Shown piece by piece: positions 6,980-19,565 of a stretch of DNA of 45,371 nt. This DNA comes from Deltaproteobacteria bacterium (GTDB lineage: Bacteria > Desulfobacterota > DSM-4660 > Desulfatiglandales > HGW-15), in the NCBI GenBank assembly GCA_016930835.1, contig JAFGGA010000019.1, positions 1 through 45,371 of the forward strand, read 5' to 3'. Position 1 is the first letter of the stretch; each line of letters starts with the position of its first letter. The position numbers and the translations under genes are program-made. The notes beneath the pieces are model-generated. The model saw only the letters and a list, made by a program, of their open reading frames with translations, ran no database searches and had not been told where the DNA came from.

Positions 6980-7546
6980 ATGAAAAAAGTGAAAATTTTA
7001 GGGATTATGATTGCGTTCATTATCATGAGCACAGGGTTAGCATTTTCCGCTGAAAAGGCTCCGCAAAAAATTATCGATCTTGCTCACTCAAAATTATCTG
7101 ATCTTGGAGCGGATCCAATCATTGTAAAAGCGGTCAAAGAGGAGAATGAAAAACGAAAAAGTCTTGCCCAGATCCAGGAGATGGATAACAAATGGAAGGC
7201 CCACGCTGGTATTGCTGATTATATGCAAGCAATGATGGATTCCGAATGCGGGAAACACTTGCGGGACATCCAGAGTAGTGCGGGGTACTACGCTGAAATC
7301 TTTGTCATGGACAACCAAGGCGCGAATGTGGCCATGACCGATAAAACATCCGACTACTGGCAGGGTGACGAAGCCAAATTTAAAAAAACATATAATGGCG
7401 GACTAGGTGCTGTTTTTATTGATGATGTCGAGTTTGATGATAGTGCCCAGGCATACCTTGTTCAGGTTTCTGTCCCTGTAAGAGATGGTGAAAAAACAAT
7501 CGGAGCCATTACTATTGGAATAGATGTGGACAAGGTAGAAAAATGA
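6980..7546 (+). CDS. Periplasmic stand-alone Cache/PDC-like sensor protein
   Basis: A 188-residue protein with a clear signal peptide (basic start, [15 protein letters not shown] core, cleavage after F-S-A). The second half reads [37 protein letters not shown]..., then [24 protein letters not shown]. This is the strand pattern of single Cache (PDC-like) ligand-binding domains, usually found fused to the periplasmic side of chemoreceptors and kinases. Here it is free, with no transmembrane anchor after cleavage. It ends 17 bases before the MCP start, so the two are co-transcribed, and I infer it delivers a ligand signal to that receptor. The ligand is unknown. Confidence 0.75.
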
Positions 7547-7563
7547 GAAAAGGAGATCATGTG

Positions 7564-9303
7564 ATGTTCTCATGGTTAAAGAATCTTAATATAAGAGACA
7601 AGCTAATTATTGGTTTTTCCATTATGATCCTTTTTTTATCAATCGTCGGTTTTACCGGATACCAGAATATCAAAAATATCCAAAAAAATTTGGAGGATAT
7701 TTTTTTGGTCCGGCTTCCGGCTATTGATTATTTGATAGAAGCGGATCGGGATCTTCAGCAGTTACTTGTTTCAGAGCGCTCCATGATTTTTGCCAACACT
7801 TCATCTGAAGTGTTTAACAATCTAGTAAAGGACTATGAAGAGAATCTGGAGCAATCTGAGGAACGTTGGGGGAAATATAAGGCGCTTCCGATCACCCTTG
7901 AAGAAAAATCGATTTTACAGAAATATGAAAAGATCAGAGAAGAATGGAAAGTCATCTCTAGAAAGGTTGTCGATGGTCGTTTGGCAGACACAAGGGAAGG
8001 GCGCAGAGAATCTCTTGACCTCTCTTTAGGTCTTGCAAAAAACAAATTTGAAGAAATGAGAAATCATCTCGACCAATTAACTCAGATCAATTTGGATTTT
8101 GCACAGAGCGCTCATGATGATGCGGCAGCAACCTATCAAAAGACCATAATCATTCTAATTAGTATCTTGGGTGCAGGAATTTTTGTAGGTATTATTTTGG
8201 CATTGACGATCATCCAAAGTATTACACGCCCTCTAAACAACGCTGTGAATGTGTGCAATCGTCTCGCTGAAGGCGATCTTAACCAGAATATTGATGTTAG
8301 CCGTAATGATGAAGTCGGCCAGTTACTTGATGCGATGAAAAATCAGATTAAGAGAATAAAGGAAGTTATACTTGATGTGAAATCCGGGGCAAACAATGTA
8401 GCTGTAGGCAGTCAGGAAATGAGCTCCGTAGCACAACAGATGTCACAAGGTGCGACCGAGCAGGCCGCTTCAGCGGAACAGGCATCTTCATCAATGGAAC
8501 AGATGTCAGCCAATATCAAACAGAATGCTGATAATGCTCAACAGACCGAAAGGATATCCATGCAGGCTGCAATGGACGCTGAGAAAGGCGGCCGGGCTGT
8601 GGAAGAGACTGTGGGGGCCATGAAACAAATCGCTGAAAAAATATCCATCATTGAAGAGATCGCCCGTCAGACCAATATGCTGGCCCTGAATGCGGCCATC
8701 GAAGCGGCCCGTGCAGGAGAACACGGTAAAGGATTCGCTGTTGTTGCGGATGCTGTGCGTAAATTAGCGGAAAGGAGCCAAACCGCGGCCGGGGAAATCA
8801 GCAACCTTTCCACCACCAGTGTGGAGATTGCTGAAAATGCCGGTTTGATGTTGAACAAAATCGTTCCGGATATCCGAAAAACTGCCGAGCTGGTCCAGGA
8901 GATCAATGCTGCGTCTGGTGAACAGAATTCTGGAGCTGAACAGATCAACCAGGCTTTACAACAATTGGATCAAGTGATTCAACAAAACGCCTTTGCATCC
9001 GAAAAAATGTCATCGACATCCGAAGAATTGGCAGCCCAGGCAGAGCAGCTCCGGGATGCCATTTCTTTTTTTGATGTTGGTGATAATACTAGAAAAGAGA
9101 ATAAACGAGCCCGAACCATTCAAGAAAAGCTATTCCAACCTGTCCCCTCTCCGGCAAAGGTTCCAATGGCCCATTCAAAGGGACACGCGAAGGCCACCGC
9201 AAATAAGGCCGAAAGCAAGGTTAAGTCAAATCGTGTCATGCTGGATATGGGAGAAGGAAAACCTAGTGGCGACGAACTGGATGATGAGTTTGAAAAATAC
9301 TAA
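7564..9303 (+). CDS. Methyl-accepting chemotaxis protein (4HB type)
   Basis: Transmembrane chemoreceptor of 579 residues from the ATG at 7564, chosen because AAGGAG lies eight bases upstream; the in-frame ATG at 7543 lacks this. TM1 (~14-34), a helical periplasmic sensor of four-helix-bundle type (~35-190), TM2 (~194-217), HAMP (~218-272) and the coiled-coil signalling domain follow in order. The CheA/CheW-contact hairpin tip is [20 protein letters not shown] (~364-383). After the bundle, a basic flexible linker of about 60 residues leads to the terminal EFEKY. That fits the aromatic-x-x-aromatic pentapeptide used to dock CheR/CheB. It is co-transcribed with the Cache-like protein upstream and converges on the che operon. 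Confidence 0.95.
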
Positions 9304-9464: not shown

Positions 9465-10115
9465 TCAAAACAAATCGATCTTACAGCCCTTGTTTGCCTC
9501 CAACTTCAACGTTTCAGACCATTTTTTTTCTCTGATGCCCACATCTGGGTACAGGGTGGGATTGATTCGTTTAAGGTATACATCGCCTGTATCCGTATGG
9601 AAATAAACCTTTCGGATAACCGTGTCTCCGAAGTCATAACTGACGATCCTAATGCGTTCGTTGTTCAAAAATTTTTTTACAAATTCAACGATTCTTTGAC
9701 CCATGCCATTCTCTTCTGCGATCGTTGGCAAGACAGACCCTCCGCCGAATGCCTTTGCTACGATCTTTCGTCTATCACCACCCAGTCCCATAATGGCATT
9801 GATTAATAACTCCAAGGCATTCATACCATAGCGGGCAGAGGCATCAAAATGTTTGAGATTGGCTCTTCCTGGCAAAAGGATGTGGTTCATACCTCCAATC
9901 TTATTAATGGGGTCATATAGACAAACGGCAACACATGAGCCCAATAAGGTATAAATGGTTGAGGCTTCTTTACTGGCATAATATTCACCGATATTAATGG
10001 TAATCTTTCGTAGCATATGGTCTGTTTTGGCCTCAGGATGGATCGAAAAAAGCGAAATCATTTGACTATATAATGGCCTCGAATCATCTGTGGCTTCGAT
10101 CCATTTGCGGATCAT
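9465..10115 (-). CDS. cheD: Chemoreceptor glutamine deamidase CheD
   Basis: CheD deamidates specific receptor glutamines and, in other bacteria, is tuned by CheC and CheY-P. The catalytic Cys lies in TLLGSCVAVCLYDP and the His in IGGMNHILLPG, the family signature. AKAFGGGSVLP and GDTVIRKVYFHTDTGDVYLKRI follow as expected. At 216 residues it is longer than the usual ~160 because of an N-terminal extension; internal ATGs could shorten it. It is the last gene of the che operon, 13 bases after cheB. No CheC partner is present in the window. Confidence 0.93.
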   Translation of the reverse strand: MIRKWIEATDDSRPLYSQMISLFSIHPEAKTDHMLRKITINIGEYYASKEASTIYTLLGSCVAVCLYDPINKIGGMNHILLPGRANLKHFDASARYGMNALELLINAIMGLGGDRRKIVAKAFGGGSVLPTIAEENGMGQRIVEFVKKFLNNERIRIVSYDFGDTVIRKVYFHTDTGDVYLKRINPTLYPDVGIREKKWSETLKLEANKGCKIDLF

Positions 10116-10128
10116 CGATTTCCAAATC

Positions 10129-11208
10129 TTATTTCATACCCTCCCTCAAAACCGCTCCTGATATAGACGGTAATCCCAAAACCTTATCCACCGCGTTTAG
10201 CTTGATGGCCTCATGAGGCATGCCGAACACAATGGATGTAGCTTCGTCCTGGGCTATGGTGAAGGCCCCTGCCTCTTTCATTTCCAAAAGACCTTTTGCG
10301 CCGTCATCACCCATTCCCGTCATGATCACACCGATGGCATTTTTTCCGGCGTAACGAGCCGCCGAACGAAATAGAACATCTACGGATGGTCGATGACGGG
10401 AAACCAGAGGACCGGATTTAATCTCCACATAATATCGGGCACCGCTTCGTTTGAGCAACATATGATGGTTCCCGGGGGCGATGAGCACCTGTCCGCGCAA
10501 AACCGTGTCATTATTGGCCGCTTCTTTGATGGAAACCTGGCAGATACCGTCCAAACGCTTGGCAAAAGCACGGGTGAAGTTCTCGGGCATATGCTGAACC
10601 ACCACCATGCCCGGTGCATCGGGTGGCAATGCCTCAAATAATATGCGCAAGGCCTCGGTCCCGCCTGTAGATGCACCCACAGCCACGACCTTTTCAGTAG
10701 TTTTGATCATAGCTTTATTTTTGGGTTTTGGAAGTACTGCGTCCGCCGTGAGTTTAGGAGCCACCTTTTTGTAATATTGAATTTTTTGAATCTTTGCGAC
10801 GGATGCCGCTTTGACACTATCGCAAATTCGGATCTTTGATTCTCTGAGGAAATCTTTGGTTCCCATGGTTGGCTTTTGGATAATCTCAACGGCTCCGTAT
10901 TCCAGGGCCTTAAGGGCCGTCTCGGACTTCTCATGGGCAAGACTCGAGCAGATGACCACAGGAATGGGATGCTGGCTCATGATCTTCTGCAAAAAAGTGA
11001 TTCCATCCATGCGAGGCATTTCCACATCCAACATAATCACGTTAGGGGCCTCGTCCTGCATCTTCCGAGCGGCGATATATGGATCAGCCGCCGCCCCGAT
11101 CACGTCAATGTCCCTATCAGAGGACAAAACCTCCATAAGGGTTTGACGGACCATGGCCGAATCATCAACAATGAGAACCTTGGTTTTGTTTTTCACCTCA
11201 GTCTCCAT
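10129..11208 (-). CDS. cheB: Chemotaxis response regulator protein-glutamate methylesterase
   Basis: CheB removes methyl groups from receptor glutamates and may deamidate glutamines. An N-terminal receiver has the acidic pair D15/D16, phospho-acceptor D61 ([12 protein letters not shown]) and K112 (EIIQKP). A linker leads to the esterase domain with the catalytic triad visible as S180 (VGASTGG), H206 ([11 protein letters not shown]) and D302 ([10 protein letters not shown]). The 359-residue length is normal. It lies between cheR and cheD; the 203-base spacer on the cheR side contains repeat words. Confidence 0.97.
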
Positions 11209-11411
11209 TCTTCATTAAAAATATCATGTTCGATGTTCCGTTATTCAGGAAAGGGAATACCGGAATACTGGAATATTGGATTGTTGAAGTATTGGTTTTT
11301 AGAATTCCCCACCACTCCATCACTCTACTACTCCAGATTTGAATCGTTGTATTGAGGAATGAATTACCTTGAAATATTGTTCCATTTTTCATAAATGTCC
11401 TTTGGATATTT
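11209..11411. repeat. cheR-cheB spacer with GAATACTGGAATATTGG-type words
   Basis: The spacer contains TTCGATGTTCCGTTATTC (11229-11246), then GGAATACCGGAATACTGGAA-type repeats (11257-11277), then ACCACTCCATCACTC-type words. These low-complexity phrases recur in varied form in the other che spacers and before purE. No gene is visible. Confidence 0.5.
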
Positions 11412-12296
11412 TCACCCAATCTTCTGATACACTGCCGGCGCGACCGACCTCAGCGGCAATCCCTGACAATGAAGGACCTCTGAATGTCCCATAAACAAAT
11501 AACCCTCAGGCCTTAGATATCGACACAAGCGTAGAATAAGACCATCCTGAGTTTCTTTATTGAAATAGATGATCACATTTCGACAAAAAATAATATCCAA
11601 AGGTTCCCTGAATCGAAAATCCTCGTCCATCAAGTTCAGCCGACGATATTTGACCTTGTCCCTTAATTCCGGTACTATCCGCACGAGCCCTTTATTACGA
11701 TCCTTGCTTTTTAAAAAGTATTTTTTTCTCAAATCAGGTGGAACCGGCTCGATATCTTGGCGATGGTATATTCCACACCGAGCATCTTCGAGGACATCGG
11801 TGGATATATCGGTTGCCAATATGATAAAATCAAACGCCAGACCCTGATATCTTGCGGCGAAGTCACTTAGAACCATGGCAATGGTATAGGCCTCATTGCC
11901 TTTGGAACAGGCAGCACTCCACACCGTAAGCTTCTTTTTAATGCCTGCCTCCCATGTTCTGATCAGATCCGGTACGGCCTTACGAACGAGAAAATCAAAA
12001 TGATTGGGCTCTCTGAAAAAGTCCGTCTTATTGGTGGTAATCACATTAATAAAGTAGGTCAGCTCATGTTCCATACCTTGTGGACTAAACAGGTATTCGC
12101 AGTAATCGGTGAATGACTGGATCTGCAGGCTTCGCAACCGCTTTCTTAGACGCGATTCCACCATATTCATCTTGGACAGTGGCATCTTGATCCCTGCTTG
12201 AGATTGAATAAGCTCACTCAATCGTCTGAAATCAACCTTGGAGAGATGATGTGTGAAATAATCCTGATATGCCGTATCGTGCGTGTAGATGCCCAT
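11412..12296 (-). CDS. cheR: Chemotaxis protein methyltransferase CheR
   Basis: CheR methylates receptor glutamates from S-adenosylmethionine. The N-terminal helical domain (FRRLSELIQSQAGIKMP, with SRLRKRLRSL) is followed by the methyltransferase domain with TNKTDFFREPNHFDFL, the SAM-binding WSAACSKGNEAYTIAM, ILATDISTDVLEDAR, and DIIFCRNVIIYFNKE. I start at the ATG at 12296, giving 294 residues. A longer frame beginning with TTG at 12344 only adds a hydrophobic artefact not found in this family. No clear ribosome site is seen. The EFEKY tail of the neighbouring MCP fits CheR docking. Confidence 0.95.
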   Translation of the reverse strand: MGIYTHDTAYQDYFTHHLSKVDFRRLSELIQSQAGIKMPLSKMNMVESRLRKRLRSLQIQSFTDYCEYLFSPQGMEHELTYFINVITTNKTDFFREPNHFDFLVRKAVPDLIRTWEAGIKKKLTVWSAACSKGNEAYTIAMVLSDFAARYQGLAFDFIILATDISTDVLEDARCGIYHRQDIEPVPPDLRKKYFLKSKDRNKGLVRIVPELRDKVKYRRLNLMDEDFRFREPLDIIFCRNVIIYFNKETQDGLILRLCRYLRPEGYLFMGHSEVLHCQGLPLRSVAPAVYQKIG

Positions 12297-12580
12297 GGCT
12301 AATATTTCGAAAAATAAAACAATAAATAATATCCCAAACCACAATCTTAACTCTCTTATACGGCGAAAGGTTCAAGGTACATCGCACAAGGGGTGGCCTC
12401 CGGTAATTGTCTAATCCGTCTGCGGTGGATAAGTGCTAGCCCGCCTATATTTATGACGGGTTCGATATTCATAGATTGATTTTATTTTCTTTGTGCCCTA
12501 CCCCTTTTGCCCAGCTTTGACATAACAATGAAACGCACCAATAATTGAATCATTGTACAACCTAACGCCACTATTTGGTC
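12297..12580. repeat. cheW-cheR spacer with CAAGG-type repeat words
   Basis: The 284-base spacer has GGTTCAAGGTACATCGCACAAGG-like words (about 12369-12391), resembling CGCAAGGCGCAAGG near 1576. A minus-strand 38-codon frame beginning near 12476 reads through these words without a ribosome site, so I do not call it. Confidence 0.4.
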
Positions 12581-13093
12581 TTAAGACTCCGCTCGCTTCA
12601 GAACAGGTTCCTCTTCCGCATCTTGAAGAAGAGTCAGTTCTTCTGAGGAAAAAACCTTGTCAATATCTAGAATAATGACGAACTCATCATTCTTTTTACC
12701 CATACCTTTGATAAATTCTGTTTTGAGTCTTGTCCCGATGCGAGGCGGCGGTTCGATCTGGTCGGGCTCCAGGGTTAACACTTCTTGTACTGAATCGGCT
12801 AATGCACCTAAAAGCGTACTTTCACCTTCAAGGCTGATTTCCATGATAATGATGCAAGTGTCCACAGTCTTTTCCGTGATGGACATGCCAAATTTCAAAC
12901 GAAGGTCTACGACTGGCACCACTCCCCCTCTTAAGTTGATGACTCCCCGCATAAATTCCGGCATACGTGGTACCTTGGTCACCTCAGTAAAATCAAGGAC
13001 CTCACGCACCTGGATAATGTCCAGTGCGTATACCTCCTGATCCAGCTTAAAGGTCAAGTATTGACTGTTTTCCATAATTCCAATGTCTGTCAT
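12581..13093 (-). CDS. cheW: Chemotaxis coupling protein CheW
   Basis: CheW scaffolds receptors to CheA. The 170-residue protein is one CheW domain: YLTFKLDQEVYALDIIQVRE, VPRMPEFMRGVINLRGGVVPVVDLR with the conserved N-L-R-G, then VQEVLTL and a C-terminal IKGMGKKNDEFVIILDIDKV. An acidic C-terminal tail (~20 residues) follows. An AGAAAGGAGAAC ribosome site precedes the ATG. The 208-base spacer toward cheA contains a perfect 9-bp palindrome. Confidence 0.97.
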   Translation of the reverse strand: MTDIGIMENSQYLTFKLDQEVYALDIIQVREVLDFTEVTKVPRMPEFMRGVINLRGGVVPVVDLRLKFGMSITEKTVDTCIIIMEISLEGESTLLGALADSVQEVLTLEPDQIEPPPRIGTRLKTEFIKGMGKKNDEFVIILDIDKVFSSEELTLLQDAEEEPVLKRAES

Positions 13094-13301: not shown

Positions 13302-15374
13302 TCAAACCAACGCATTTACATCCAATATCAATGCCACCGTGCCGTCTCCCAAGATCGTGGCGCCGGAAACATCTTTGACGCCTTTAAAGGCCGGCCCCAA
13401 CGACTTGATTACGGTCTGGTGACCCCCCACCACATGATCCACCACAAATCCGATTCGTTTGTCGTACACATCCGCAATGACGATATGTTCCAGATCCGGC
13501 TTGTTTTCCTTCATCTCAAAATGATCACGCAAACGTACATATGGAACGATTTCACCACGAACGTTCATGATGTTTGCGCCATGTGCTTTTTCCACGTCCT
13601 CTTTGGTCAGCTCGGTACATTCCTCCACGGTGGCTAGAGGGAGGACATAATAACTGTCGCCGATGGTCACCAGAAGCCCATTAATAATGGCGAGGGTGAG
13701 CGGCAGTTTTAACGTGATGCATGTTCCCTTGCCTTTGACACTTGAGACATCCACGGTGCCCCTGAGTGATTCAATAGTCTTTTTCACCACATCCATGCCG
13801 ACCCCTCTACCGGACAAATTCGTGATCTTTTCAGATGTCGAAAAGCCGGGGGCGAAGATCCGAGAAAGGATTTCTTTTTCAGTCAGTTCGGCCTCTTTTG
13901 GAATAAGCCCCTTTTCTATGGCTTTCAATCGAATAGCATCAGGATCCAGCCCGATTCCATCATCCTCAATGGTGATGACCACATTGGCCCCTTTATGAGC
14001 CGCCGCAAGACGAATGGTTCCGGTTTCGGGTTTGTTTTTTTTCTTTCTTTCCGCGGGGGGTTCTATCCCATGATCAATGCAATTTCTAATCATATGAACT
14101 AGCGGATCATCCAGACGTTCAATAACCGTCTTATCCAGTTCGGTTTCAGCACCTTCGGTAATTAAAGCAATATCTTTACCCAACTCCGCGGAGAGATCTC
14201 TCACCAGGCGTCTGAACTTGCTGAAGGTTGTTCCAATGGGCATCATGCGGATATTCAGCACGCTGTCCCTGAGTTCAGTGGTTAATCTTTCTATCTCTTC
14301 AACAGGATTAACCAATTCCGCATGATTCATGTCGGCCGAAACCTGACTGAGTCTTGCCTGGGTGATGACCAACTCACCGACGAGATTCACCAGCTTGTCC
14401 AATCGATCCGAAGGCACTCGGACTGTTCCAACCCTCGCGGACAGCCGTTGTTTTTCTAAACGTTGCTGTTCAATAAGAGCGGACTCGACCTTTCCACGCG
14501 ACACCGATCCGGAGTCCACCAACAACTCACCAATTTTTTTCTGTTCACTTAAGGCCTTGGTCACGGTTTCCGGTATAACATCGCCCCTCTCTACAAGGAT
14601 CTCTCCGAGACGAGGGACGGGCTCTTCCACATTCTGTTCAGCAGCTTCCACGATATCAATACGTATATCGCAATCATCTTCCACGAATATGAAGATATCC
14701 CTGACGGCATTGATTCCCTTGGCGGTTACAAGGATAATGTCCCAATACAGATAACACGATTCGGGATCGAGTTTTTCAATGGATGGTATACCGTCTGTGT
14801 GGGCCATAATGGAGCAATCGCCCATTTCCCGGAGTTCGTCTAAAAGAAGGGCTGGATCCATGCCTCTTGAAAATATCTCCCTGTTGGGCCTAAACCGTAT
14901 GCGATAGGTCATGTCTTTGCCTTGAGTCGTATCAAAAGATGGAGGCCGGCCGATATCTTTTTCAGCCGAAAGTGTTTTATCATTTTCAGATTCGAAAAGC
15001 ATGGCATTGAGTGATTCAATGATCTTTTGCCGGGTCCCGGTATCCGGCTTTTGATGACCTTCCGTCTCGTTCAACATCATCATAATCTGGTCCCTTGAGG
15101 CGAGGACCAGATCGATCAATCGTTTACTTACCGGCACTAAACCTGCTCGAACCTTATCCAGAACCGTCTCCACATGATGGGTAAACTCGGCAATAGCATC
15201 AAACCCGAACATCGAACCCGACCCCTTAATGGTGTGCATGCAGCGAAAAAGGCGGTTCACCGCCTCCCGGTCTTCAGGATCATCTTCAATGTCAAGGATC
15301 GCCTGTTCAATCTCGGAAAGAAGTTCCTCGGCCTCCTGTCTATAGGCGTCCATAAATCTGTTTGATTCACTCAT
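13302..15374 (-). CDS. cheA: Chemotaxis histidine kinase CheA
   Basis: The central kinase phosphorylates CheY and CheB. Domains in order are: HPt with phospho-accepting H47 (CMHTIKGSGSMFG); a ferredoxin-like segment (~155-245, RIRFRPNREIFSRGMDP) in place of a typical P2; two short repeats LGEILVERGDV...ALSEQ and IGELLVDSGSV...ALIEQ (~256-303) resembling the GspE/PilB N-terminal fold; dimerisation helices (LDKLVNLVGELVITQ); HATPase with the N box (MIRNCIDHGIEPP), DDGIGLD and GRGVGMDVV; and a C-terminal CheW-like domain. Length is 690 residues. An AGGAGG ribosome site precedes the ATG. Confidence 0.97.
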   Translation of the reverse strand: MSESNRFMDAYRQEAEELLSEIEQAILDIEDDPEDREAVNRLFRCMHTIKGSGSMFGFDAIAEFTHHVETVLDKVRAGLVPVSKRLIDLVLASRDQIMMMLNETEGHQKPDTGTRQKIIESLNAMLFESENDKTLSAEKDIGRPPSFDTTQGKDMTYRIRFRPNREIFSRGMDPALLLDELREMGDCSIMAHTDGIPSIEKLDPESCYLYWDIILVTAKGINAVRDIFIFVEDDCDIRIDIVEAAEQNVEEPVPRLGEILVERGDVIPETVTKALSEQKKIGELLVDSGSVSRGKVESALIEQQRLEKQRLSARVGTVRVPSDRLDKLVNLVGELVITQARLSQVSADMNHAELVNPVEEIERLTTELRDSVLNIRMMPIGTTFSKFRRLVRDLSAELGKDIALITEGAETELDKTVIERLDDPLVHMIRNCIDHGIEPPAERKKKNKPETGTIRLAAAHKGANVVITIEDDGIGLDPDAIRLKAIEKGLIPKEAELTEKEILSRIFAPGFSTSEKITNLSGRGVGMDVVKKTIESLRGTVDVSSVKGKGTCITLKLPLTLAIINGLLVTIGDSYYVLPLATVEECTELTKEDVEKAHGANIMNVRGEIVPYVRLRDHFEMKENKPDLEHIVIADVYDKRIGFVVDHVVGGHQTVIKSLGPAFKGVKDVSGATILGDGTVALILDVNALV

Positions 15375-15475: not shown

Positions 15476-15841
15476 TCATTTAAGCACCTTTTTAATCACA
15501 CCCAGAAGTTGATCCGGCTTAAAAGGCTTTACAATCCATCCGGTGGCGCCGGCGGCCTTGCCCTCTTGCTTTTTACGATCTTGTGATTCCGTGGTAAGCA
15601 TAATGATGGGGATAAATCTATATCGTGGCTTGGCCCGTACCTGTCTGATCAATTCAGTCCCATCCATCCTGGGCATATTCAGGTCTGTAATCAACATGCT
15701 GACCAAATGGCTATCGAGCTTTTCAATGGCGTCTTGTCCGTCCACTGCCTCTATGACTTCGTAACCGGCCTGTTTTAATGTGAAATTGACCATCTGGCGG
15801 ATACTGGCCGAATCATCGGCGGTCATGATTAATTTTGACAT
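15476..15841 (-). CDS. cheY: Chemotaxis response regulator CheY
   Basis: A single receiver domain of 121 residues with D9/D10 and phospho-acceptor D53 (LITDLNMPRMDG), T83/T84 (IMLTTES) and the conserved Lys in IVKPFKPDQL. Phosphorylated CheY acts on the motility output. An excellent GGAGG ribosome site precedes the ATG. It lies between the STAS gene and cheA. It is the only free receiver in the window, so the likely substrate of any phosphatase in this operon. Confidence 0.96.
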   Translation of the reverse strand: MSKLIMTADDSASIRQMVNFTLKQAGYEVIEAVDGQDAIEKLDSHLVSMLITDLNMPRMDGTELIRQVRAKPRYRFIPIIMLTTESQDRKKQEGKAAGATGWIVKPFKPDQLLGVIKKVLK

Positions 15842-15873: not shown

Positions 15874-16161
15874 CTATTTTCCATCCCATTCCAAACCGAT
15901 GCGATCCGCTGCATACTGGACTGTCTGAGAAAAACCTGGAAAAGATATCTTTTTCCCTGATTCTTTGGCGCTTTTGAATATGCAATAGAGGAGTTGAACC
16001 CCCGCGGTGTCACAATCCGTTATACTGCTCAGATCAAGGAAAATTTCATCTGAGCCCTCGAATGCCTGGGCATATTTTTGATAGATTTCCATCGCTTCGT
16101 GAATCATCAAGGCACCTTCCAAACTGAAGGCACTTCCCTCATTTGTTTTCTTTTTCTTCAT
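15874..16161 (-). CDS. STAS-domain protein of the chemotaxis operon
   Basis: A 95-residue STAS domain: EGALMIHEAMEIYQKYAQAFEG, the strand-loop DEIFLDLSSITDCDTAGVQLL with the conserved D-x-A/S-G pattern of anti-sigma-factor antagonists and MlaB, and a final helix. In the family a Ser or Thr can be phosphorylated at the loop; here the loop is D-C-D-T-A-G, with Thr at that place. Such genes often precede cheY-cheA in Desulfobacterota and Geobacter operons. Its role in signalling is not known. Confidence 0.85.
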   Translation of the reverse strand: MKKKKTNEGSAFSLEGALMIHEAMEIYQKYAQAFEGSDEIFLDLSSITDCDTAGVQLLYCIFKSAKESGKKISFPGFSQTVQYAADRIGLEWDGK

Positions 16162-16181: not shown

Positions 16182-18047
16182 TTAAAAAAGTTCCACATTT
16201 TCGCCTAAATCACTTTGTTTTTCTTGTCTATGGTTCACTTTTTCATCAATGTTTTTTTGATCGCGATCAATGGTTTGACCTTCGCGCCATGACCAGTGAG
16301 CCCTCTCAATATTGGCTTTTCCTCCCCAAGACTGAATCTGCTGACAAATCTCCCTTTCACTCTCCATGGTGTAACGTTGAGTGGCGGAAGACAGATCGAT
16401 ATGCAGTTTTTTTTCAACATCGGTGATTAATTGGCTTAAAGATTTAATGGCGCTTTCGATTTTTTTCAGGATATCCGAAAGCCTTTCCTTTACATCCGTT
16501 ATAAACCCTAAATCTGAACCGATACGTGAAATGAGTTTTTGGAGTGTCTGCGACCGTTCCAATGCGATGGAGGTGTCTTTTTCAATATTGGCATATATTT
16601 TTGACACATGATCAACACTCACGTCCAAAGACATGGTTGATCCGGTATCATCACAACGACTTTCTTTTTCACGCCTCCAAGAGCAGTCACCCAAAACCTT
16701 AACATATTCTGAGATGGATACGAGTGTCTCCACCACTTGCGCCACAAAACTATTGGATTCTTTTGATACTTCCGTAACCTCCTGCGCAAGTACTTCGAGT
16801 GTTCTCCCCTCTCCGCCCAATCGCTTAGACATGACCACTGCATTAATGGCCTTAATGTGGAGTTCCATACTAATGCTTTCCACTAAATCCAGGTGAGCGG
16901 ACAATTTGGAGACGGTTTCTGATGATTGTCTCATCGACTTCTCAACCTGCTTTCCCAAATCATGTCCTTGACTGATGAGATGGTTTAATCGTTCCAAGGC
17001 TGACCTGAGGGTCATGAATTTTTTATCAAACCCTTCTTCATCCGAAGACTCCACCTCAAGATCCAGGCCACTATCAAGCATCATCTCAACTTCATGGCCG
17101 ACATCCTTGAATGCCTTTTCAACTTTGTCTTGGACATCATCCAGTTGGGAAAGGACTTGTTTGATATGGGCAACCTGTAGTTCAAGGATCGAATGGACAT
17201 GCACAATTTGATTGGATCTTTTAGGATCGGCATCATCATGGATGCACGATTTCCGGCAAATCTCCTCTACATCCACCAGGGCATTGATTACATGCTCCAG
17301 CTGTTGCCGAGTAATATCGTGGAATTGAATGGCCTCAACAATTTCACCAATCTTATGGTTGATCTCTTGGCCATGTTCTTCAGCCTTCCCTAGAGAAGCC
17401 AGAGATGTATCGAAGAGCCGTTCGATCTTTTCAACACTCTCCCGCGCGGTTTTATCGGCCTTATGGGCAAGGTCTTCTAATTGGGTCTGGCGCACCGCGA
17501 TATCACCCAACGTATCCAATTGGATTGACCGGGCCGTTTCCGCGTCATTATGGATATTGACGGAAACTTCGTGTATCGTCTTTGCTAGCCTTTTGATCTC
17601 CTGGGCAAACGAAGCAAACATCTCTTCACATCCTGTTGAACGGCTGCTCTCCACTCCGATATTCATGGCAACGATATTCAGGCTTTTTGAAATCTTTTTG
17701 ATTGCATAAGACATGGTTCGAAGCTGTTCAAGGTGCTTGGAACCGCTTTGGATGTTCGGGATGTACATGGATATATCGGACTGACAATCTTTAAATTCCA
17801 CCAAGGACCGGTTCACCAGGGTTTCAATCCTGCCGAGAAAATTGTTATTCGTTTGTCCGCCGATCTCCTTTGCCGTCTCAATGGTTAATCTTTTCAAATC
17901 GTTCGTTACAGAATAAACGGACTGAAGATCATTACCCAACTGGATGAATCTTGGCTCAATATCTTTTAATAGCTCACCCAATGGCCTTTTTAGACCCGTT
18001 ATCTGGGCCCGCACTTGATTTATTTGTGGCGTAATAGGATCCATCAT
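16182..18047 (-). CDS. Cytoplasmic double-tip MCP-like protein with CheZ-like motif
   Basis: A 621-residue predicted coiled-coil protein without signal peptide or transmembrane segment. Two regions resemble the MCP hairpin tip: KKISKSLNIVAMNIGVESSR (~117-136) with FAQEIKRLAK, and LHIKAINAVVMSKRLGGEGR (~396-415) with LEVLAQEVTEVSKE. Between them, IQFHDITRQQLEHVINAL (~240-257) matches the active helix of CheZ phosphatase (F-Q-D-L-T-G-Q), with D244 and Q248 at the catalytic spacing. A flexible basic C-terminus ends in DLGENVELF, similar to the acidic/aromatic CheY-binding tail of CheZ. It overlaps the preceding gene by four bases. I infer a hybrid scaffold/phosphatase; the motifs are visible, but activity is untested. 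Confidence 0.75.
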   Translation of the reverse strand: MMDPITPQINQVRAQITGLKRPLGELLKDIEPRFIQLGNDLQSVYSVTNDLKRLTIETAKEIGGQTNNNFLGRIETLVNRSLVEFKDCQSDISMYIPNIQSGSKHLEQLRTMSYAIKKISKSLNIVAMNIGVESSRSTGCEEMFASFAQEIKRLAKTIHEVSVNIHNDAETARSIQLDTLGDIAVRQTQLEDLAHKADKTARESVEKIERLFDTSLASLGKAEEHGQEINHKIGEIVEAIQFHDITRQQLEHVINALVDVEEICRKSCIHDDADPKRSNQIVHVHSILELQVAHIKQVLSQLDDVQDKVEKAFKDVGHEVEMMLDSGLDLEVESSDEEGFDKKFMTLRSALERLNHLISQGHDLGKQVEKSMRQSSETVSKLSAHLDLVESISMELHIKAINAVVMSKRLGGEGRTLEVLAQEVTEVSKESNSFVAQVVETLVSISEYVKVLGDCSWRREKESRCDDTGSTMSLDVSVDHVSKIYANIEKDTSIALERSQTLQKLISRIGSDLGFITDVKERLSDILKKIESAIKSLSQLITDVEKKLHIDLSSATQRYTMESEREICQQIQSWGGKANIERAHWSWREGQTIDRDQKNIDEKVNHRQEKQSDLGENVELF

Positions 18048-18412
18048 ACTTGGTTTAAGATATCCGTTTCAGATGATAAGGGGATAAGCTCCTGCTTTGA
18101 CCCAACCGAATAATCACTATTTTCAAAAATATCTTTTTCCATTAAGCCTTCAAGATTGTCAGAACATGTCAACATCATCACCGAAATCTCCTTCAGTTTC
18201 CTTATCGTTAAAGCCTGAAACAAACTTTTCGTCTCTTGAGGATCTTTCCGGGTTTGTTCGTCCATCGTGTTGTTCACCACGATCTTTTCCTCATCTTTGG
18301 TAAGTAAGCGATATGTAATCTTTCGGTTGAATTCATTGGTTCCGGCATGGATATCTTGAAGGTTTTCAAGGATTTGCGAAAAATGCGATTCTGTCTCCCT
18401 CGCTACCATCAT
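18044..18412 (-). CDS. Uncharacterised first protein of the chemotaxis operon
   Basis: A 122-residue soluble, mostly helical and charged protein that I do not recognise. Its beginning (ETESHFSQILENLQDIHAG) could form a short coiled coil, and the end is acidic. The stop overlaps the start of the MCP-like gene in an ATGA-type junction, so the two are coupled and probably act together. No Shine-Dalgarno is seen before the paired ATGs at 18412/18409. Confidence 0.65.
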   Translation of the reverse strand: MMVARETESHFSQILENLQDIHAGTNEFNRKITYRLLTKDEEKIVVNNTMDEQTRKDPQETKSLFQALTIRKLKEISVMMLTCSDNLEGLMEKDIFENSDYSVGSKQELIPLSSETDILNQV

Positions 18413-18971: not shown

Positions 18972-19565
18972 ATGTACATCCCTTTACAGTACCAGATATC
19001 GGAATACGATTGCGTTCCCACGGCCTTTATGAATGCGGTAACATATCTCTACGAGCGCAATGAAATTCCACCTATGGTGATTCACCATATCTACCTATAC
19101 AGCCTTGACACGGTAGGAAGAGAGGCACGACTCGGGAGCGCTGGTACCAGTCGATACGCAATCCGGCTACTGGGAAATTGGCTGAATTCCTATAAATTCA
19201 AAAAATTTTCCGTGACCACGGAATATCTGGAAGGTGAAGAGGTTCACGTGGATCCGGGAAATAGATTATTTGTCTGTTTGAGTGAAGGAGGAGTCGTCCT
19301 CTGTAATGTTTTCCTGGGTATCAGGCAAGAACACTATATCATGCTCATGGAGATCAAAGAGGGCTGGGTATATTGTTTTGATTCATATTTTCGAAAATCC
19401 CTTCGTGGATTACGAAATAGAGTCCAGATCTTAAGGAAAAGCAATCTCCACTCTCCCAATCTGAAAATTCGTGTCGATTGGATGGCGCAAGAAGTCGAAA
19501 CATTTCGTTTCTGCCTGGGCCCAATCGACAAGCGCGAATGCCTTTTGATCTGGCGAAGTCGCTAG
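18972..19565 (+). CDS. Peptidase C39-like protein
   Basis: A 197-residue soluble protein of the papain-like C39-like group. The start (LQYQISEYDCVPTAFMNAVTYL) has the oxyanion Gln (Q7) and nucleophile Cys (C14) in the usual Q-x6-C spacing. A His follows in IRQEHYIMLME (~120) and an Asp in VYCFDSYF (~138), completing the expected triad. LGSAGTSRYAIRLLGNWLNSY is also typical. Unlike bacteriocin ABC transporters there is no transmembrane or ATPase part, so it is an intracellular stand-alone form whose substrates are unknown. The ribosome site is weak. No bacteriocin precursor is seen nearby. Confidence 0.75.
   Translation: MYIPLQYQISEYDCVPTAFMNAVTYLYERNEIPPMVIHHIYLYSLDTVGREARLGSAGTSRYAIRLLGNWLNSYKFKKFSVTTEYLEGEEVHVDPGNRLFVCLSEGGVVLCNVFLGIRQEHYIMLMEIKEGWVYCFDSYFRKSLRGLRNRVQILRKSNLHSPNLKIRVDWMAQEVETFRFCLGPIDKRECLLIWRSR

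Follow-up and report, generated by a model that had tools for sequence, protein, structure and literature searches.

The 621-residue protein encoded on the minus strand at positions 16182-18047 of the window (the whole 45,371-nucleotide stretch of DNA that was analysed, contig JAFGGA010000019.1 of a Deltaproteobacteria bacterium) is best explained as a CheZ-like CheY-P phosphatase built on a chemoreceptor scaffold and equipped with a CheY-docking tail, a reading to which we assign a probability of about 0.7. Such a protein probably switches off the signal of the adjacent CheY, and the pathway that it would serve is best read as F7-like. The first-pass annotation had proposed a CheZ-like active helix within an MCP scaffold beside CheY, and a place in the receptor array that, for a soluble protein with two degenerate tips, is conjectural. 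The helix is well supported at the sequence level by the invariance of its Asp and Gln, by its register on CheZ and by the synteny, but the match to CheZ (16.9 bits) lies below the Pfam cut-off and, by that measure, the protein falls outside the CheZ family. The anatomy of the protein, the invariance of its tail and its internal duplication can likewise be followed in the sequences. The gene and the elements of its product are as follows.

16182-18047, minus strand: gene of the double-tip MCP/CheZ-like protein, 621 aa (ORF; MCPsignal above cut-off; weak CheZ match; relatives)
17946-17981, minus strand: alpha-1 signature L..L...IEPRF, residues 23-34 (E31 79/79, F34 79/79)
17568-17699, minus strand: hairpin tip 1, degenerate, residues 117-160, turn at about residue 138 (MCPsignal match at 91-233; AlphaFold2 helix break)
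17244-17399, minus strand: CheZ-like putative active helix, residues 217-268 (hhalign with 23 CheZ proteins, 52 ungapped columns, E 1.7e-6)
17304-17327, minus strand: QFHDITRQ, residues 241-248, with the putative catalytic D244 and Q248 (invariance in the 79-row alignment; 27/27 unselected helices)
16743-16880, minus strand: hairpin tip 2, degenerate, residues 390-435 (PF00015, 44.6 bits)
16353-16373, minus strand: YTMESER, residues 559-565 (Y, M and E 79/79; kept in single-tip relatives)
16185-16211, minus strand: DLGENVELF, residues 613-621, putative CheY-docking tail (N617 78/79, L620 78/79, F621 79/79)

The scaffold is that of an MCP. The MCPsignal domain (PF00015) was matched at about residues 361-504 with 44.6 bits, against a Pfam cut-off of 34.6, and a second match, below the cut-off by itself, was found at residues 91-233 (E 5.6e-5); all 79 members of the family described below match PF00015. 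From these two matches, both of the degenerate receptor tips first noticed by inspection are real, and their letters, degenerate by eye, are VESSRSTGCEEMF and VVMSKRLGGEGRTL. The predicted absence of a membrane segment was also borne out, the highest 19-residue Kyte-Doolittle mean being 1.26. No sensor part of an MCP, either ligand-binding or membrane, and no other Pfam domain above cut-off was found in the 621-residue protein. A 122-residue ORF (18044-18412, minus strand) overlaps the gene's 5' end by a few nucleotides; it has no Pfam match, and no relative of it was found across the 78 family loci.

In the AlphaFold2 model, residues 1-269 form a single hairpin (mean pLDDT of 90), in which the helices of tip 1 stop at residues 134-136 and resume at residue 141. 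Residues 1-268 of this model were superposed on the Tsr hairpin with a Z score of 13.8 and an rmsd of 3.7 over 262 residues. A fold search of the PDB with the full-length model gave only generic long-helix matches. When the model of residues 1-275 was used, MCP hairpins were matched along its length, and no CheZ chain stood among the matches listed; a search of PDB sequences, made with the profile of the family, yielded MCPs and coiled-coil proteins among the matches listed. The antiparallel hairpin is common to the canonical MCP (PF00015; Tsr) and to the 621-residue protein, but the latter is distinguished by its two degenerate tips, by a DxxxQ motif on the hairpin arm and by the lack of a sensor domain and of a membrane segment.

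Relatives were collected by scanning genome contigs and related genomes with two patterns, one of which was QFHDI[TSA][RS]Q. The resulting alignment comprises 79 rows, in which the relatives are 17-35% identical to the 621-residue protein; they belong to the Desulfobacterota, Geobacter/Trichlorobacter, Nitrospirota, Bacteroidota/Ignavibacteria and Omnitrophota. Residues E31, F34, Q241, F242, H243, D244, I245, Q248, N402, Y559, M561, E564 and F621 are invariant across the 79 rows. As the motif was itself part of the scan pattern, loci selected through QFHD were not counted as proof of the conservation of D and Q. A second set was obtained with a search model made of the C-terminal half only, from which the helix was excluded. 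In this helix-free set, D and Q were present in 27/27 of the helices in view, the window protein among them, and their neighbours varied (QMHD, QSHD, QYQD, QTQD, QSQD, QFED). Since D and Q are fixed while the flanking F242 and H243 vary, selection falls on precisely the pair that does the catalysis in CheZ.

The two residues (D244, codon 17316-17318; Q248, codon 17304-17306) lie four residues apart in QFHDITRQ, on the arm past tip 1, just as had been described, and their conservation among relatives, on which the first-pass annotation had staked its proposal, turned out to be invariance both in the 79-row alignment and in the helix-free set. D follows the tip turn at a distance of 106 residues in 66/79 double-tip members and of 105-108 residues in the single-tip relatives measured, and E31 stands 107 residues ahead of the turn. 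One family member (locus L012/L027, contig C40 of genome G049) carries an in-frame TGA close to its end, and a further copy in the same genome is split across two contigs (L014, L015). A match on a Shinella plasmid had no clean single reading frame and was left out.

In CheZ, the catalytic pair is formed by Asp143 and Gln147. DxxxQ is the phosphatase motif of this protein (PMC7750401). In the 621-residue protein, the Pfam CheZ family (PF04344) was matched at residues 190-262, which span the helix first pointed out, with 16.9 bits (E 0.0059) against a curated cut-off of 30.7 bits. Among the family, 31/79 members match Pfam CheZ (best E 2.5e-6), which is the commonest family after MCPsignal.

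CheZ-family proteins were then gathered from the same phylum for profile-profile comparison. With hhalign and 23 CheZ sequences, the top alignment covered residues 217-268 and placed the Asp and Gln of CheZ on D244 and Q248 (score 56, E 1.7e-6), in exact register. The next-best register scored 32, and column shuffles that preserve the heptads gave at most 18.8. When the eight motif columns were masked, the same register still came first, with a score of 36.7, a value that falls inside the coiled-coil background, as ordinary MCPs reach 41 against the CheZ profile. Because this helical background is high, the case for CheZ rests on motif, register and conservation, and not on overall similarity.

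Residues 23-34 (L..L...IEPRF) may be the counterpart of the L..V...TE.A signature of CheZ, a correspondence that is no more than suggestive, ordinary MCPs scoring as high against CheZ. T30 occurs in 55/79 members, and the signature is clear in several single-tip relatives. Judging from the distances along the hairpin, E31 should lie opposite D244, as the TE signature should lie opposite DxxxQ in CheZ. In some true CheZs of the phylum (L161-L168), long inserts of >100 residues separate DxxxQ from the TE signature.

CheZ and the 621-residue protein both carry an F-[QH]-D-[IL]-[TS]-x-Q helix on the arm past the hairpin turn, and they are also alike in having a flexible linker, a short hydrophobic/acidic C-terminal peptide and a gene near CheY. 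In contrast to CheZ, the hairpin of the 621-residue protein is far longer (106 residues from turn to D, against roughly 30-50 in most CheZs collected), ends in an MCP tip and is present as a duplicated unit; Arg replaces Gly ahead of the Gln, a YTMxxER element is added, and the tail is GENVELF and not DDLLASLGF. CheC, FliY and CheX dephosphorylate CheY-P by means of an acidic and an amide residue, a pair that the 621-residue protein would putatively share. Their fold differs from that of the 621-residue protein, in which no CheC or CheX Pfam match was found.

The protein ends in DLGENVELF, as first noted, and this end had been likened to the CheY-binding tail of CheZ. In the family, the consensus [LFY]G[DE]N[VI][ED]LF is nearly invariant, a conservation that goes beyond what had been claimed, but the sequence is not the DDLLxSLGF of CheZ; in the phylum's true CheZs, the C-terminus resembles ...DDLLASLGF. 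The basic character ascribed to the preceding linker is no family trait, the linkers of the relatives being mostly acidic. In 10/78 members (L034, L038, L043, L060, L070, L079, L084, L090, L096 and L097), [DE]N[VI][ED]LF also occurs two to five times within the acidic linker, much as multivalent docking motifs do. The second of the five terminal residues is V in 61, I in 14 and F in 4 of the 79 rows. A reading of the tail as a CheR tether was rejected: NVELF does not fit x-[HFYW]-x-x-[HFYW], and V or I occupies position 2 in 75/79 members. EFEKY forms the end of the cluster's membrane MCP (7543-9303, plus strand) and agrees with the class 34H tether for CheR, which reads EFEKF in Geobacter (PMC2577667). 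The YTMxxER element, whose counterpart in single-tip relatives is Y[TVA][MT]xx[EQ]R, was not seen in CheZ.

These single-tip relatives were also returned by the search with the C-terminal half. They are roughly 410-460 residues long and contain a canonical tip, QFQDxx[RS]Q and a tail, for example NNVVLF, KIELF or DVTFF; by eye, most of them have hydrophobic segments at the N-terminus. The order of elements (tip, 106 residues, DxxxQ, YTMxxER, tail) is common to the single-tip and double-tip forms. Two single-tip relatives are encoded on plasmids of Aeromonas and Pseudomonas, immediately 5' of CheY-STAS-CheA. On the single-tip profile, CheZ was aligned in the identical register (E 1.6e-7). Furthermore, this profile has two matches in the window family, one at residues 10-270 (E 2e-26) and one at 243-571 (E 2e-29), so that the 621-residue protein is best read as a tandem duplication of the single-tip unit. 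To judge from the columns that match D and Q, where D occurs in 8/79 rows and Q in 13/79, copy 2 has lost both residues.

Downstream of the gene, the order is STAS, CheY, CheA, CheW, CheR, CheB and CheD:

15874-16161, minus strand: STAS domain protein (PF13466, E 1.3e-11)
15476-15841, minus strand: CheY, proposed substrate (PF00072, E 1.6e-26)
13302-15374, minus strand: CheA kinase (Hpt, H-kinase_dim, HATPase_c and CheW domains)
9465-13093, minus strand: CheW, CheR, CheB and CheD (Pfam above cut-off)

The observation that this operon has CheY without CheZ, CheC or CheX is correct at the operon level. The rest of the genome contains one CheZ (contig C45) and one CheX (contig C123), and no CheC match was found in the window's genome. 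The true CheZ on contig C45, 372 aa by its ORF, adjoins a different CheY; the same contig also bears CheA, CheW, CheB, CheR-like and MCP genes (names given by eye, except for CheZ and MCP). As the genome also has this true CheZ, the 621-residue protein is not the only candidate phosphatase of the cell. The CheY of the window shares 55% identity with the one encoded next to a single-tip relative in Aeromonas and 39% with the C45 CheY, in keeping with two pairs of CheY and phosphatase in a single cell; cross-talk would also be compatible. CheZ was found in 29/118 genomes sampled, 25 of them over cut-off.

Across the family, a CheY relative is present in 72/78 loci and a CheA relative in 66/78, usually just 3' of the family gene, and in some relatives a STAS gene stands between the family gene and CheY-CheA. 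In many loci, one to four extra CheY-like genes were observed just 5' of the family gene. In the window, a 197-residue ORF (18972-19565, plus strand) starts with MYIPLQYQISEYDCVPTAF, which by eye resembles the start of a C39-like cysteine peptidase.

The order of the window operon resembles that of the stage 1-2 F7 clusters, in which an anti-sigma factor antagonist is followed by cheY, cheA and further genes (PMC7184735); the operon is taken to be of F7 type from its gene order. CheZ has been found with F6 only, and not with stage 1-2 F7 clusters (PMC7184735). In McpA-like receptors, the C-terminus, with a Val at position 2, is strikingly conserved and has a role described as "important yet unclear", and it binds none of four CheRs (PMC7184735). 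In P. aeruginosa, CttP is encoded directly 5' of cheY2-cheA2 (PMC3062574).

Like the 621-residue protein, the McpA/CttP-like receptors (PA0180, VCA1088, SO_2117; PMC7184735) are MCPs of unassignable class that adjoin cheY-cheA. The Val at position 2 of their C-terminal pentapeptide agrees with NVELF, and their F7 cluster is devoid of CheZ, as is the window operon. The published members possess a membrane region and, presumably, a single tip, whereas the 621-residue protein is soluble and has two. The single-tip forms resemble these receptors and are set beside them by published description, and their identity with McpA is a prediction. In the papers searched, no proposal of a phosphatase role for McpA/CttP-like receptors was found.

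Other explanations of these data were weighed. The QFHDxxxQ helix might be a non-catalytic surface for binding CheY-P or another receiver, the protein acting as a scaffold or phosphate sink near CheA. Any specific contact with CheY would explain the conservation and the synteny, and another phosphatase is present in the genome. We consider this unlikely, since both catalytic positions, and not only their aromatic neighbours, never change in the helix-free set, and since the exact D-x-x-x-Q register of CheZ is needless for mere binding. The protein might also be a phosphatase whose main substrate is another receiver (an extra CheY-like protein, the receiver of CheB or a CheY that serves a second pathway), which would result in cross-talk and not in the ending of its own signal. 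The CheY-like genes just 5' in many loci point in this direction, as does the published association of McpA-type receptors with an F6 array that belongs to a different pathway; the most constant partner, however, is the CheY just downstream, and the adjacent CheY is of the class paired with single-tip relatives, which makes a different main substrate decidedly improbable.

That the protein is an ordinary soluble chemoreceptor, with a motif that is a structural trait of an MCP subclass and a NWETF-like tail tethering CheR/CheB, would agree with an MCPsignal match above cut-off, with the N-x-E-x-F common to the tail and NWETF, and with the presence of CheR, CheB and CheD within the operon. It is nevertheless highly improbable: the second tail position is mostly V (61/79) and not [HFYW], the membrane MCP of the cluster carries its own EFEKY tether-like end, F[QHE]DxxxQ was absent from the 25 ordinary MCPs examined (0/25), and McpA, which likewise has a Val there, does not bind any of four CheRs (PMC7184735). 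Finally, a coincidental convergence of coiled coils, of no functional meaning, is scarcely credible. Although ordinary MCPs reach a moderate 41 against CheZ and the full-length fold search gave generic long helices only, D and Q are invariant in members from several phyla that share about 20% identity, their spacing to the tip is fixed, and the exact register is found in two independent subfamilies.

For the preferred reading, a CheZ-like phosphatase on a receptor scaffold, we infer the catalysis, the partner of the tail and the geometry of the reaction as follows. The protein would originate from the tandem duplication of an MCP hairpin unit bearing a CheZ-type active helix on its descending arm. 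Its flexible C-terminal peptide, GENVELF, would capture the CheY encoded two genes downstream, and D244 and Q248, carried by the arm of the first hairpin, would insert into the CheY active site and speed the hydrolysis of CheY-P in the manner of Asp143 and Gln147 in CheZ. Copy 2, deprived of D and Q, would mainly retain the YTMxxER element and the tail. The activity might be regulated by receptor input or by contact of the hairpin with CheA/CheW.

In many chemosensory pathways, the ancestral F7 type included, CheY is present and a recognised phosphatase is absent; Geobacter, without CheZ, must rely on a CheZ-independent mechanism (PMC2577667). No description of a CheZ site inside a chemoreceptor was found in the open-access literature (subscription papers were outside the search). 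A long-puzzling class of receptors may be explained by a CheZ site built into them. More tentatively, and with somewhat less than even odds in our estimation, the McpA/24H-like single-tip membrane receptors and the double-tip soluble ones would make up a superfamily of MCP-hairpin CheY-P phosphatases sharing ancestry with CheZ, either CheZ being a receptor hairpin with a shortened tip or the receptors being CheZ hairpins that gained one, and the McpA C-terminus would serve the 'CheZ-less' ancestral F7 pathway as its peptide for docking CheY. If the phosphatase reading is true, a candidate for the missing phosphatase would be encoded beside CheY, and the conserved C-terminus of McpA would gain a directly testable role. 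Enzymes would then be hidden under 'MCP' annotations, and the hairpins of CheZ and of chemoreceptors may share a common origin.
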